Below, in pieces: positions 3,127 through 23,806 of a DNA stretch of 26,935 bases. Made by a program: the position numbers and the translations under genes. The stretch is from a virus: IMG/VR virus record IMGVR_UViG_3300030101_002272, positions 1 through 26,935 of that record; one strand, 5' to 3'. Under the pieces are notes generated by a model. The model was not told the origin of the DNA. It saw only the letters and a list, made by a program, of their open reading frames with translations, and ran no database searches. How positions within the stretch are numbered: the stretch's first letter is position 1; each line of letters starts with the position of its first letter.

Positions 3127-3704
3127 TATGGTGCAATATCAGGCGTTAAAAAGTTGCGTAATGTTAATTTTGTGCCTTGCTGTTTAGGTCTTTCAAGGTT
3201 CATTCCTGCATAATACGCATTACGATCTGGTGATATGTCCGCACCACTGTTTGTACTGTATTCAGGAAACAATGATAAATTATTTACAATGTATTCGATC
3301 ATTCTTTCTGTATAATATTCGGCTGTATTTCTTATTTCCTCACGTAAATGTTGTGCTTCATCAGTACTTAAGGAATTGCCATTCTCGCTTGTTTTAGAAA
3401 AAATATTTCCATTCTCGATTTTAAAACGCAAAAAAGGAATAGCGTGGAAAAATGCCCATTGCGGCAACATATCGCCAATAAAATCATCTAATAATGTTTT
3501 ATATGCTTCATTGCCTACGTTGCCAATTGTATTGTTTGTTATTAGTGTTTTTATTTTTTCAAATAATGTTGTGCCTAGTTTAGGTTCAACATAAATTTTT
3601 TGTGCCTGTCGCACATAAGGCAACAACAAATCAGTATCAACCTGTAGGTTGATTGCTGTACTTTCTTTTAATTTACTTTCCGATATAAATAAAACGTAAC
3701 TCAT
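3126..3704 (-). CDS. Head-tail connector (neck) protein, DUF6712-like
   Basis: A 192-residue, mainly helical protein immediately after the portal gene. Its first half has an acidic/polar helix followed by LLPYVRQAQKIYVEPKLGTTLFEKI, which matches the pattern of DUF6712 proteins of Bacteroidota phages (a helix, then 'I.P.LG..L...L'). These are analogous to gp6/gp15-type connectors that bind under the portal ring. The central part (DMLPQWAFFHAIPFLRFKI) and later helices (EEIRNTAEYYTERMIEYI) fit the same helical-bundle fold. Position next to the portal supports a neck role. The exact family name is from memory of the pattern and not from a search. Confidence 0.62.
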   Translation of the reverse strand: MSYVLFISESKLKESTAINLQVDTDLLLPYVRQAQKIYVEPKLGTTLFEKIKTLITNNTIGNVGNEAYKTLLDDFIGDMLPQWAFFHAIPFLRFKIENGNIFSKTSENGNSLSTDEAQHLREEIRNTAEYYTERMIEYIVNNLSLFPEYSTNSGADISPDRNAYYAGMNLERPKQQGTKLTLRNFLTPDIAP

Positions 3705-3710
3705 ATTATA

Positions 3711-5852
3711 TTATTTTAAAAATCCCTGATTAGGCATGTTAATAGGTGCTGTTTCTACTAAATTATCTAATTTTTCTAATGTAAACCCATCACTTTTTGC
3801 TTTCGTATTGCTAATTAATTTATCTGCATCAATATTATCTGGATAATAAACAAAATTATCATCTGTTGGATCAGCTTGATAAATTAATCTAGTCCACTTA
3901 TGATAACATGCTCCGCCGCCTTTGTAAAACCAGATAGAGTACGTATTTGCGCCTTTGGGACCAAAACCAGGGTTTACAGCTTTTGTACCCATATTTATAA
4001 TATCACGTTTTCTATATAATTTATTTGCCGACATCATAGCATTGCAAAAATCACGTGAGCTGCTTTTTGGGTTTTTAGATATTTTAGTATATCTGTATCT
4101 TACTTTGAAAAATGCATTACCCTGTCTATTCAAACCATCCTCATCATCACGTGCATTAGGGTTAGCTCTACCTGTACTAATAAAATTATATTTTTCATTT
4201 ACACTATCATTTAATTTTTGTTCGAAATCAAACTCTTCATGTTCATCACCTACTAGTTCTTCATCTAACAAAACATAACCTTCTGGTGCATCTTCACCAA
4301 ATTCATTTATAAAATTGTGTAATTCTAAATTTTGTTTACTAGCTTTAATTGGAACACAATTAGGCACTTCTCTACCATCTTTTATTTTAGTACCAATAGC
4401 TTCATAACCTTTTTCACATGGATTGGGTGTAATAAATTCTTCTTTACAATCACATTTATTTAGGTTCATTATTTGTTCATGGTCTTCACATGGCATATAA
4501 TATGTTTTTCCGTCTTGCGTATGCTCATGATGTCCAGTGCAACCTAATTTTTCTGCCTCTGCCTCTGCCTCTTCTATTGTTTCATACAATGGCATTTCTA
4601 TACCATCTGTTATCATTGTGCCAACTTTGCTTAACTCTTCCTTTACTTGTATTTCTTCATCTATTGGTGCTAAACCTAACTCTTCACGTATTTCATTAGT
4701 TTGCATAACAGCTTTTAAATCTTCATTTGTAAACTCTAATGTAATAGGTTTTAACTGTACAAAACCAACTTCCAAATCAATATTATTTACACTAAATATA
4801 GTTTGTAAAGTATCTAATATGTGATTTTGAAAACCTTTTACAACACTGTTTAAATAAAAATTTGCAGCACTGTTTAATTCGTTAGCATTGTTTCCTAAAC
4901 CTGTATTTGACTTTATACCCATCAGCATAGGTGATGTAACCCTATGCCCAGTTAGAATATTTTGTACAAGTAATTCCTGTAATGCTAGATATTGTTTGTC
5001 TGCATCACTTACACTTATTGGTGTGATTTCAGGTGTTCTAGTTTTATCATCAGAAAAAGTTAATACCATTTTATGACCTCTAGCCCCTGTGAATTTATCT
5101 GTTAAGCTACGTTCAATTTGCAAACGTTCTTCTTGTGTTGGCACACCATTGGCAAAACTTATAAAATACGATCCAGAAAAACCATTTTCTATATTATTTA
5201 AATGAAATTCTGCAACCTTTTGATCACATAACGCCCAATTACAACACGCTAAATAATCTGGTGTGTGATAAATATCCATATTAGGCGAATAAGCACCAGT
5301 ATAAAGTAATTGACTAGGTGCTGTTCTATCTTTAGTGTTAAATGCAGCTATAGGTGATGGTTTATGCACTCTAGTGTTGCTCCAATCTGCACTAATGTAA
5401 TATGTATCAATAACACCCATTTCATTAGGTTTACCTGCCCTAACACGTTCTACAGGAACATGGTGTATTTCTGCAATAGCTGTTTTTTCTACGTTCCATA
5501 TTATGTGTAATGCGTATGCTCCTTGTAGTTTAAAATCAAATGCAACTTTTTTTATTATTTGATGTAATGTTTCCTTGCCATTTGCATGTCGCATAAATTT
5601 TTTAAGTTTCACATATACATCTAAATTTGTTTCATCATCTTCAATAACTAGTTCTTCACCTGCAATCATTTCCGCTGTGGCGTTTATTATGGCTGCATGG
5701 GTACTGGAATTGTAATATAAGTCTATTAGGAATTGTGGATAAAGATTTTTCCAATCTTCTGTACCATACTCTATATAATCACGCCCACGTACTTCTTGCA
5801 CAATAGGTGCTGTTTGTGTTTCTAAATTTATTGATAGTATTTTGTCATTCAT
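3711..5852 (-). CDS. Portal protein with multi-module C-terminal extension
   Basis: A 713-residue protein. Residues about 30-400 resemble phage portals of the HK97/PBSX type: an N-terminal wing region (YPQFLIDLYYNSSTHAAII), a central part, and a long stem/clip region with HRVTSPMLMGI and ANELNSAANFYLNSVV. Portals form the dodecameric DNA gate and are normally 400-550 residues. Here the rest holds added pieces: at about 423-458 a Cys/His segment (GCTGHHEHTQ ... YYMPCEDH); at 479-502 CEKGYEAIGTKIKDGR followed by VPNCVPIK; an acidic linker; and at 580-660 a domain with SRDFCNAM, GFGPKG and GGGACYHKW. Similar short modules occur attached to portal, protease or other virion proteins of many phages. 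It lies after the capsid genes, not before them, which is unusual. Confidence 0.85.
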   Translation of the reverse strand: MNDKILSINLETQTAPIVQEVRGRDYIEYGTEDWKNLYPQFLIDLYYNSSTHAAIINATAEMIAGEELVIEDDETNLDVYVKLKKFMRHANGKETLHQIIKKVAFDFKLQGAYALHIIWNVEKTAIAEIHHVPVERVRAGKPNEMGVIDTYYISADWSNTRVHKPSPIAAFNTKDRTAPSQLLYTGAYSPNMDIYHTPDYLACCNWALCDQKVAEFHLNNIENGFSGSYFISFANGVPTQEERLQIERSLTDKFTGARGHKMVLTFSDDKTRTPEITPISVSDADKQYLALQELLVQNILTGHRVTSPMLMGIKSNTGLGNNANELNSAANFYLNSVVKGFQNHILDTLQTIFSVNNIDLEVGFVQLKPITLEFTNEDLKAVMQTNEIREELGLAPIDEEIQVKEELSKVGTMITDGIEMPLYETIEEAEAEAEKLGCTGHHEHTQDGKTYYMPCEDHEQIMNLNKCDCKEEFITPNPCEKGYEAIGTKIKDGREVPNCVPIKASKQNLELHNFINEFGEDAPEGYVLLDEELVGDEHEEFDFEQKLNDSVNEKYNFISTGRANPNARDDEDGLNRQGNAFFKVRYRYTKISKNPKSSSRDFCNAMMSANKLYRKRDIINMGTKAVNPGFGPKGANTYSIWFYKGGGACYHKWTRLIYQADPTDDNFVYYPDNIDADKLISNTKAKSDGFTLEKLDNLVETAPINMPNQGFLK

Positions 5853-20721: not shown

Positions 20722-22032
20722 TTACTGTACATAGTATTTACCAAAATTATTGTCAATTTCATAAAACATACGCATTGCAAGTGCATCTGCATAATCTGGT
20801 GATCTACCTAATATTGCTTTTACATCATCTTTAGGTTTTATTTGCAGCTTATTGTCTTTGTCTGCATCTTTTGTTCTGACTTGTTCTAACTCTTCTATAA
20901 TATAATTTTTTACATTTACATCACTGCAACTTATCCCTATTTGTGCTTTGTTTATTAAATCAGCCAGTTTGTAATAACATTGTGTTTTTAAATTTAAATA
21001 GTTTTCTTTTTTAATTGCTTTTGCATTATTTATAAAACCTTGACACCTTAAATAATCTTTTACTCCACCACCAACACCATCTTCATCAACAATGATGTTT
21101 CTTGTGTTGACTTTGTTTTCTTGTTGTAATTTTTTGACTTGATCAACAACATCATTTATTGCAGATTTTAATATTGTTTTCACATACATAACATGCAAAC
21201 CTGACCATAACATAATTACTGTTTTATCACTACCAAAACGTGCTACATCACAAGTTATATATTTTTCTCCCTCTGTTCCTTTTTGTGTAAATAGATTTAG
21301 TATTGCATTATATTCTATTAAACTATCATTTGTTGCATCATACTCCCAATTACCAAATAATAATCTTTGTTTGCTTAATTCATCAAGTTCAAACAGTTGT
21401 TTTTCATAATGTTTTGATATATATTGATTATCATTTACTAAACTTTGTATAAACTTTCTATATGGTTTTATTGTGTTATCTTTCGCAGGTCTATAATACT
21501 CACTGTACACCCAATTTTTTGCAGGGTTGCAAGTCATCAACATTTTAGGTATTAATTTGTTTTCATCTAGTTTATATCTTAATCTTGATGCAACTACATT
21601 TTTTGCTTTTTCTGTAATTTGGTTTGCTTCATCTATAAATGCACTTGTAATTTCTAATGAACCTAAACTGTCAAAATTTCTATCTGATGGGTACAAAAAC
21701 AAATCTTTCAATATTATTTCACTGCCATTGTAAAACGTTATTATGTTACTTGAACCATTAAATGTGTAATCTTTGTTTGCTTTTAATTGCCATGCTGTAC
21801 AAACTTCAAAAAAAGTATTTAGTGTTGTTTTTTTTAGTGCATCTAGTTTTGATCTACCCATTAAGTATCTAGTTTTTTTATACTTGATACACATTAATAT
21901 TAAATAACTAACACCAACCCATGATTTGCCACCACCTGCTGCTCCACCAAATAATATTTCCTTTGTTTTATTGTCAAACAAATAACGTAAACATTCTTTT
22001 TGTGTTTTGGTAAATTTAGGTTCAATCAGCAA
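20722..22032 (-). CDS. terL: Terminase large subunit
   Basis: A 436-residue packaging motor. The ATPase half has Walker A GGAAGGGKS at 29-37, Walker B ITSAFIDEA at about 128-136 (catalytic Glu135) and a coupling motif TCNP at 167-170. The nuclease half has the acidic residues of an RNase H fold: CDVARFGSDKT (Asp262), VDEDGVGGGV (Asp316 and Asp318) and SPDYADALAM near 411-420. All key residues are present and the length is normal, so the gene should be functional. It binds the portal and cuts concatemeric DNA. Its start overlaps the small-subunit gene by 11 bases. It ends directly at a hairpin, and the tail module follows, not the portal. Confidence 0.97.
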   Translation of the reverse strand: MLIEPKFTKTQKECLRYLFDNKTKEILFGGAAGGGKSWVGVSYLILMCIKYKKTRYLMGRSKLDALKKTTLNTFFEVCTAWQLKANKDYTFNGSSNIITFYNGSEIILKDLFLYPSDRNFDSLGSLEITSAFIDEANQITEKAKNVVASRLRYKLDENKLIPKMLMTCNPAKNWVYSEYYRPAKDNTIKPYRKFIQSLVNDNQYISKHYEKQLFELDELSKQRLLFGNWEYDATNDSLIEYNAILNLFTQKGTEGEKYITCDVARFGSDKTVIMLWSGLHVMYVKTILKSAINDVVDQVKKLQQENKVNTRNIIVDEDGVGGGVKDYLRCQGFINNAKAIKKENYLNLKTQCYYKLADLINKAQIGISCSDVNVKNYIIEELEQVRTKDADKDNKLQIKPKDDVKAILGRSPDYADALAMRMFYEIDNNFGKYYVQ

Positions 22033-22366
22033 GATTAATATTTATTTTTATAGGTTCATTATCTGTTGTTAAATCTAGTTCATTACGTTCAACGTAACCT
22101 CTTTTTTTACCTTTTGTTTTTAAATAGAATATAGTTGCAGGTGTACTGCCATCTTTTATTTGTGTGTGTAACTGACTTTCTGCAAAATCTAATGCAATGT
22201 TTTCTATTTCTTTAACAGCTTTTGCAAACTCTTCATCTTCTTTTAACCACTTATAATATGTGCTACGTGGTACATCTGCTTGTTTACATGCTATTGTAAC
22301 AACGCCTAAACTGTTTTCTAATGCTTGTAATATTGTTTCTTTTTTTATATGTCTACTTTTGTCCAT
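22022..22366 (-). CDS. terS: Terminase small subunit
   Basis: A 114-residue protein with an N-terminal helix-turn-helix typical of phBC6A51-type small terminases. MDKSRHIKKETILQALENSL leads into VVTIACKQADVPRSTYYKWL and EDEEFAKAVKEIENIALDFA; a later helix (SQLHTQIKDGSTPATIFYLK) and KGKKRGYVER complete the family pattern. It recognises packaging DNA and assembles as a ring with the large subunit. It overlaps the glycosyltransferase-like gene by 14 bases and the terL start by 11 bases, so the three are probably translated together. The acidic/isoleucine tail (EPIKININLAD) may contact TerL. Confidence 0.92.
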   Translation of the reverse strand: MDKSRHIKKETILQALENSLGVVTIACKQADVPRSTYYKWLKEDEEFAKAVKEIENIALDFAESQLHTQIKDGSTPATIFYLKTKGKKRGYVERNELDLTTDNEPIKININLAD

Positions 22367-23285
22367 TATATATAATATTTTTTAATTCTTTTAACATCAT
22401 ATCCCTATGTGTTAATTCAGTTATTCTCCATGATTTTTGTATTGCTAAATGTTTCTTAAAATTTTCATTACATATTTTAATTTTGTTTTGCAAATCTGCA
22501 TAACTATTAACAATATAAAATTCTACTTGATCTTTAAAATAATTTAATTCTGATTTATTTATTGTGTTTCTGCAATTACTATCAAAAAAAACTACATTGT
22601 TACAAAAACCTGCCTCATAATATCTATTTGCTAAATTGCAAAATATTTTATTAGTTTTATTATCTTCTATATATAATTGATACTTAAATAAATTTAGTGT
22701 TTCTTTTTTTTCTCGCCAACTTAATTTGCTAATGTATTTAGGGTTGCAACCAATGTGTTTAAACTTTTTAAAGTTTTTAGGTGATGTGCTTAAATATATA
22801 TCATTTTGCAAATATTTTGTGAAATAGTTTTTTCTATCCTTTCTAAATGTGCCATAATAAATGCAATCATATTTTTTATTTGTTATACTATTTGCTTGTT
22901 TTGCTAATAATAAATTTATGTTTAATGTATTAACACTCAATTCTGATTTACTTTTTTCGCATTCATACCCTGCTATTAGATGATATGGTTTAAAACCGCC
23001 TATAGATGATGTGAAATTTACATCATTACTGATTACTATTTTTTTTGCATTAGGATTATTTTGTAATAGTTTTTTAATCAACTGGAAAGGTGCGTAATGA
23101 CTAGCAAATGCTAGTATTAATATGTCGTATTTTTTATTTAATGCATTTATAAAATCTTGTTCAACACATAACAAATCACATTTTAAATATTCACTAATTA
23201 TTATTGCATTACGCAAATGTGCATCTATAGCTTTTTTTTTATCTAATTTTTTATTAGGGTATATTTCTATTAATGCAACGTTCAT
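22353..23285 (-). CDS. Probable GT-B-like glycosyltransferase
   Basis: A 310-residue soluble protein. The first half has a Rossmann-like pattern (MNVALIEIYPNKK, KYDILILAFASHYAP, AKKIVISNDVNF). The second half has YDCIYYGTFRKDRKNYF, then LFKYQLYIEDNK and LANRYYEAGFCNNVVFFDSN. The last block matches the C-terminal part of GT-B transferases, where a 'N R x y E a' motif binds the sugar nucleotide. The substrate is unknown; phage glycosyltransferases modify DNA bases, virion proteins or host surface glycans. It sits between a ParB-like gene (four-base overlap) and terS (14-base overlap), an unusual place that hints at a role linked to DNA before packaging. A different Rossmann-type transferase cannot be excluded. 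Confidence 0.62.
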   Translation of the reverse strand: MNVALIEIYPNKKLDKKKAIDAHLRNAIIISEYLKCDLLCVEQDFINALNKKYDILILAFASHYAPFQLIKKLLQNNPNAKKIVISNDVNFTSSIGGFKPYHLIAGYECEKSKSELSVNTLNINLLLAKQANSITNKKYDCIYYGTFRKDRKNYFTKYLQNDIYLSTSPKNFKKFKHIGCNPKYISKLSWREKKETLNLFKYQLYIEDNKTNKIFCNLANRYYEAGFCNNVVFFDSNCRNTINKSELNYFKDQVEFYIVNSYADLQNKIKICNENFKKHLAIQKSWRITELTHRDMMLKELKNIIYNGQK

Positions 23286-23806
23286 GCTATTTTTTTTATA
23301 AAATCTTCATACGTTAATTTTGTTGCTTTTGTATTTAGTCTATTTTTTAGTATATCTAATTGTTGTAAATTATCACAACGTATTATAAAATTTGCATTTT
23401 CTGTAAATTCTGTTATTTGCTCAATGTCTTCTATTTCTGCATCATCATTATTTTGCCATACATCTAATCCCCAATTAGATAATGCAACACTATCCCAATT
23501 GTTAGCTAATATATCCCATTCCCACTCACCAAAACCAACATTGTCTTTAATAATAAACTCTTGTTTTTGTTCTACTGTTAAACCTTTTGCTACTTTAACA
23601 TGCACTTCTTTTAAACCTGCTTCAATACATGCTTTGTGTCGCATGTTACCCCCTAATATTAAATTGTTTTCATCAACGACAATAGGCCTTAATTCTAACA
23701 TTTCTGGGAATTCTTTTATTGATTGTACAAGTTTTTTAAATTTACTATCTTTTATAAATCTAGGGTTTTTAACATTAGATTGTATTTCGTTTATTTTTAC
23801 TTTCAT
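23282..23806 (-). CDS. ParB-like N-terminal domain protein
   Basis: A 174-residue protein whose first 110 residues follow the ParB/sulfiredoxin-like fold: KINEIQSNVKNPRFIKDSKF, LVQSIKEFPEMLELRPIVVD, the nucleotide-binding box LGGNMRHKACIEAG at about 51-64, and EFIIKDNVGFGEWEWDILAN. Phage proteins of this type bind CTP or act as nucleases or DNA-modification partners. Residues 117-174 form an acidic linker and a small alpha/beta end (ANFIIRCDNLQQLDILKNRL). No DNA-binding HTH of a full ParB is present, so it is unlikely to be a partition protein. It is coupled to the glycosyltransferase gene by a four-base overlap. Confidence 0.85.
   Translation of the reverse strand: MKVKINEIQSNVKNPRFIKDSKFKKLVQSIKEFPEMLELRPIVVDENNLILGGNMRHKACIEAGLKEVHVKVAKGLTVEQKQEFIIKDNVGFGEWEWDILANNWDSVALSNWGLDVWQNNDDAEIEDIEQITEFTENANFIIRCDNLQQLDILKNRLNTKATKLTYEDFIKKIA

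Follow-up and report, generated by a model that had tools for sequence, protein, structure and literature searches.

Two overlapping genes directly upstream of the terminase genes of a 28-kb phage probably form a DNA-modification cassette, in which a predicted glycosyltransferase (GT) resembling T4 DNA beta-glucosyltransferase (BGT) would act with a ParB-type partner before or during packaging.

Genome and locus

The window that we analysed, 26,935 bases long, was taken from a virus record of 28,525 bases. The ends of the record repeat each other over 100 bp with one mismatch (99/100 identical) and its junction region is spanned by a relative, so the record, which IMG/VR classes as linear, is essentially one whole genome of ~28.4 kb, bar a few masked N. 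It encodes a DUF3127 protein, and because DUF3127 is found mainly in Bacteroidota, this hints at a host in that group. Pfam scans of the early genes identified an SSB-like protein, a DnaA-like domain, a weak RecT match, NinG and HTH proteins. A calcineurin-like metallophosphoesterase gene was observed at positions 1504-2220 of the window, close to a DUF5675 gene.

The initial annotation had described the ParB-like, GT, TerS and TerL genes as tied by overlaps of 4, 14 and 11 bases, and re-reading coordinates and strand from the sequence gave the same picture (Table 1). The 14-base overlap of GT and TerS spans positions 22353-22366 and the 11-base overlap of TerS and TerL, with a TTG start, spans positions 22022-22032; both are also present in the nearer relatives.

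Table 1. Features of the glycosyltransferase locus, in window coordinates.
Feature	Position	Strand	Basis
ParB-like partner, 174 aa	23282..23806	-	PF02195, AF2 model, structure match, tail HMM
Predicted BGT-like glycosyltransferase (GT), 310 aa, GT-B fold	22353..23285	-	AF2, Foldseek, VIA, hhalign, conservation
TerS, terminase small subunit	22022..22366	-	PF20901 3.6e-5, just below cutoff; phrog_4044 1.1e-8
TerL, terminase large subunit	20722..22032	-	PF04466 (Terminase_3) 7.7e-16; phrog_2 7.5e-35
ATGA start/stop overlap, couples ParB-like and GT genes	23282..23285	-	sequence; kept in most relatives

We counted upstream partners in the 73 related loci whose sequence extends beyond 450 nt upstream of GT. 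A ParB-like or tail-bearing partner lies directly upstream of GT in 54 of them, and the 4-base overlap is the same in most of these. In three further loci (L068, L069 and L080) the partner appears when another start is chosen or is reduced to a tail-only ORF. The arrangement is therefore not due to chance. A survey of phages for the same gene pair had been suggested by the annotation; it found the pair again in dozens of uncultivated phages, and its position before the terminase is real and conserved. The papers that we searched on ParB and glycosyltransferases in phage modification made no mention of this gene pair.

The TerL proteins encoded after the pair fall into at least four classes (Terminase_3, Terminase_6/T7-type, TerL_ATPase and GpA), so that the position of the pair is kept across different packaging machineries. 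In the T4-like phages Cronobacter S13 and Citrobacter Ci1, a related pair of GT and tail-protein genes lies between uvsY and uvsW, off the terminase. A pair specific to one terminase was rejected on both of these counts, and the link with the terminase is one of position, with no functional dependence. Of the earlier proposal that the pair acts around packaging, the conserved position before the terminase was thus upheld and dependence on the terminase was not. Most loci without a partner belong to a distant branch of GTs that lacks ParB; several of these ParB-less GTs (L082, L085, L087-L090 and L095) adjoin a DnaB replicative helicase, and DUF1376 genes are found near some of them.

Predicted fold and conserved residues of the glycosyltransferase

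Sequence searches with GT gave a Pfam match to Glyco_trans_1_2 at E 0.17, below its cutoff, no match among PHROG, NCBIfam and PDB sequences, and no Pfam match to the BGT family (PF09198) at E <= 1. We modelled the protein with AlphaFold2 using 51 sequences in all, with relatives drawn from viral contigs, and obtained a confident two-domain structure (pLDDT 93, pTM 0.90). When the model was compared with the PDB using Foldseek, the top six matches were all T4 BGT (best E 1.1e-10). VIA-align likewise placed T4 BGT first (Z 23.9, 2.8 Å over 291 residues, 19% identity) and T4 DNA alpha-glucosyltransferase (AGT) second (Z 18.9); the remaining GT-B enzymes had Z <= 17.5, mostly with 8-12% identity. 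On this model the protein is a GT-B glycosyltransferase, and both the glycosyltransferase-like call, which had been made from sequence alone, and the fold search against GT-B enzymes proposed with it are borne out by the predicted structure.

Profile comparison by hhalign connected GT with six BGT-family proteins (96.7%, E 3.8e-10) across the C-terminal (donor) domain only; AGT was ruled out as a sequence-level relative (0.5%). The alignment pairs R148 and R151 with BGT R191 and R195, D208 with D258, R221 with R269 and E224 with E272, and all five GT residues are invariant in 51/51 sequences. Position 88, which lies outside the part aligned by hhalign, is aspartate in this GT (D88) and D or E in 51/51 sequences, and MAFFT aligns it with BGT D100. 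In T4 BGT, the donor-site residues paired here bind the UDP-sugar, and D100 is the catalytic base. In short, the donor side of GT appears BGT-like and its acceptor side seems to have diverged further.

GT is most likely homologous to T4 BGT, judging from the modelled structure and the profile match. The two would share the whole-length GT-B fold and the donor-site arginine pair and Arg/Glu, and may share the acid that MAFFT aligns to D100. They differ in that GT does not match PF09198 (b-gt) and has a diverged acceptor domain, in that no thymidylate-synthase-type dCMP hydroxymethylase was found in carriers of GT, and in that GT is paired, before the terminase, with a ParB-like gene. AGT, second in the fold ranking, and the RB69 ORF003c-type arabinosyltransferase (PMC6024577) are also DNA-acting GT-B enzymes, but their phages make hydroxymethylcytosine, and GT lacks profile-level similarity to AGT. 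Because the family model is unmatched and the acceptor route absent, we kept GT out of PF09198 and filed the pair as a BGT-like DNA glycosyltransferase cassette with predicted DNA activity.

The ParB-like partner

The partner has an N-terminal ParB/Srx domain of the CTP-binding type (about residues 1-92) and, at its C-terminus, a small tail (about residues 130-174). It matches PF02195 at E 2.9e-5, just below the cutoff, and its AF2 model has a pLDDT of 86. The best structure for the head is that of Myxococcus xanthus ParB-CTPgammaS (Z 13.2, 1.5 Å, 34% identity). The CTP-binding type domain is therefore common to the partner and to chromosomal and plasmid ParB, but the match is at this N-terminal domain only: the structure aligns confidently up to about residue 92-114, and the 174-residue model lacks, and has no room for, the parS-binding central and dimerisation domains.

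When the 3,980 ORFs of all GT loci were searched with a tail HMM, the matches were essentially GT partners only. These include a 56-aa ORF (L080:5838-6008) that consists of the C-terminal tail alone and overlaps the GT start, as well as the ORFs of S13 and Ci1, which overlap GT by 4 bases and have the tail with no detectable ParB head. Because the profile finds essentially GT partners only, including tail-only and headless ORFs, the tail appears to be the part of the partner that is most tightly tied to GT.

The head has relatives elsewhere. An HMM of it matched the ParB proteins of phages BS-TP3, Javan117, LE3, P596, MismyG and SL25 at ~60-123 bits, and among the 60 records listed for the closest ParB heads in a tblastn search of cultured phages, 25 have the head inside a gene with a DNA methylase or methyltransferase annotation. 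In BS-TP3, the slot between the ParB gene and the terminase is occupied by a methyltransferase. LE3 (L099:3456-5077) and SL25 (L104, about 3500-5200) have an ABC-ATPase/GNAT fusion after the ParB-like gene, and MismyG (L103:3486-5470) has a ParB-like gene, an ABC-ATPase and then GNAT and ASCH genes, in each case upstream of the terminase. The ABC-ATPase/GNAT genes of these three phages are annotated as hypothetical or transport proteins; together with the ParB-like genes they are perhaps a Mom-like DNA-modification cassette. ParBc proteins also neighbour CmoX, a phage DNA cytosine carboxymethyltransferase, and their role there is stated to be unknown (PMC12783734, 2025); one ParB-methylase is credited with nicking activity in an earlier review (PMC5512222). 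The GT pair thus resembles ParB-methylase and other ParB-linked modification genes (including ParB-MTase fusions) in its homologous ParB head and in a location that is often just upstream of the terminase; it differs in that GT fills the enzyme slot and in its tail, which was not detected in the methylase cassettes tested.

The acceptor base

T4 BGT requires a hydroxymethylated base. We searched for the thymidylate-synthase/hydroxymethylase family (PF00303), recovering T4 gp42 as a control, and found no member in this genome or in the 32 other carrier records (33 in total). The initial annotation had seen no hydroxymethylase gene in the window, and for the thymidylate-synthase type this extends to the essentially complete genome and to the other carriers, which leaves the acceptor unexplained. 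Pfam scans found nothing similar to a base hydroxylase among the early genes of this phage. Tet_JBP gave no match in the carriers, but its control was also silent and we do not count the result as evidence. The absence of a hydroxymethylase is firm for the thymidylate-synthase-type family and for those genes of this genome that can be recognised, and only that far, because some carriers are represented by fragments and the Tet_JBP search lacked a working control. S13 and Ci1 each have one thymidylate-synthase-family gene, which in S13 is the annotated thymidylate synthase; T4-Gluco-transf gave no match in either phage, in a search that had no working control.

No DNA polymerase or nucleotide-pool genes were recognised in this genome, so a T4-style route via modified dNTPs seems unlikely in this phage. 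Either an enzyme that we did not recognise would prepare the base, or the sugar would go to a base that carries no modification. The first case could still end as in T4, with a host enzyme or an unrecognised phage enzyme hydroxymethylating the base and GT glucosylating 5hmC or 5hmU. We regard this as possible but somewhat doubtful. Homology to BGT argues for it, and several small ORFs of the genome have no assignment. One locus (L061:3437-6909) carries two ParB-like genes, a radical SAM gene (PF04055), GT, more genes and then TerL; the position of the radical SAM gene between the ParB-like genes and GT implies that other pre-modifying enzymes may exist, and it is a possible base-preparing enzyme that fits a variable preparation step. 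Against T4-style glucosylation stand the small genome and the PF00303 result across the 33 carriers, and, the partner aside, we found no gene with a conserved link to GT that would supply the acceptor.

The pair may instead represent a new class of DNA glycosyltransferase, which we advance tentatively. Such an enzyme would attach the sugar straight to an unmodified base, or to one that the ParB-like partner has prepared, with no hydroxymethylated precursor, and its coupling to the packaging genes would let DNA be tagged just before it enters the capsid.

Discussion

For the DNA substrate, the role of the partner, the timing and the protection, we infer the following model. GT would bind a nucleotide sugar, probably a UDP-sugar, in its C-terminal domain, through the conserved arginine pair and Arg/Glu, and move the sugar onto a base of phage DNA that is already polymerised; the acid at position 88 would probably serve as catalytic base. 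The tail of the partner probably docks on GT, and its CTP-type ParB domain probably loads or positions GT on DNA, as may also happen in the ParB-methylase and other ParB-modification cassettes that occupy this position in other phages. Made together with TerS and TerL, GT would act after replication and up to packaging, and virion DNA would thereby be protected from restriction.

Whether GT acts on DNA or on virion proteins had been left open by the annotation. We favour DNA because, among solved structures, the two T4 DNA glucosyltransferases come nearest to GT, and the ParB-type partner, common to DNA-modifying cassettes, points the same way; structure and gene context together give the DNA reading strong support. 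Counted against DNA are the lack of a thymidylate-synthase-family hydroxymethylase in the 33 carrier records searched, the many acceptors served by GT-B folds, the restriction of the hhalign match to the donor domain and the lack of a match to PF09198. Glycosylation of a virion or packaging protein (capsid, portal or terminase), with the place before the terminase reflecting late expression, would suit a gene that adjoins TerS and TerL, and many GT-B enzymes do act on proteins, GtfA and SdgB among them, lower in the fold list. We nevertheless consider a protein substrate improbable: the DNA glucosyltransferases come clearly first, above all other GT-B enzymes, and the partner is of the ParB type that accompanies DNA-modifying enzymes. 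Moreover, the unrelated terminases, the T4-like pair far from the packaging genes and the distant GTs beside DnaB argue that GT has no fixed virion protein partner. Modification of a host surface polysaccharide or other host target, in seroconversion or superinfection exclusion, is a use to which phage glycosyltransferase genes are often put and is compatible with the fold taken alone, but it is very unlikely given co-translation with ParB-like and terminase genes, a fold ranking that points to DNA enzymes, the near absence of GT from bacterial genomes (two distant matches among 84,980 species genomes) and the typical location of seroconversion genes in prophages.

To our knowledge, known phage DNA glycosylation passes via a hydroxylated base, which in large phages is for the most part produced at the level of nucleotides. 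Finding a BGT-like enzyme both in a phage of 28 kb and in T4-like phages with no recognised hydroxymethylase would suggest that a simpler route exists and that the modified base may be one not yet described. The 174-aa partner and the 310-aa enzyme would offer a tractable two-protein system in which to study the ParB domain that stands beside phage DNA-modifying enzymes. A relative that acts on a different acceptor would also have practical value, since base mapping makes wide use of T4 BGT as a reagent.
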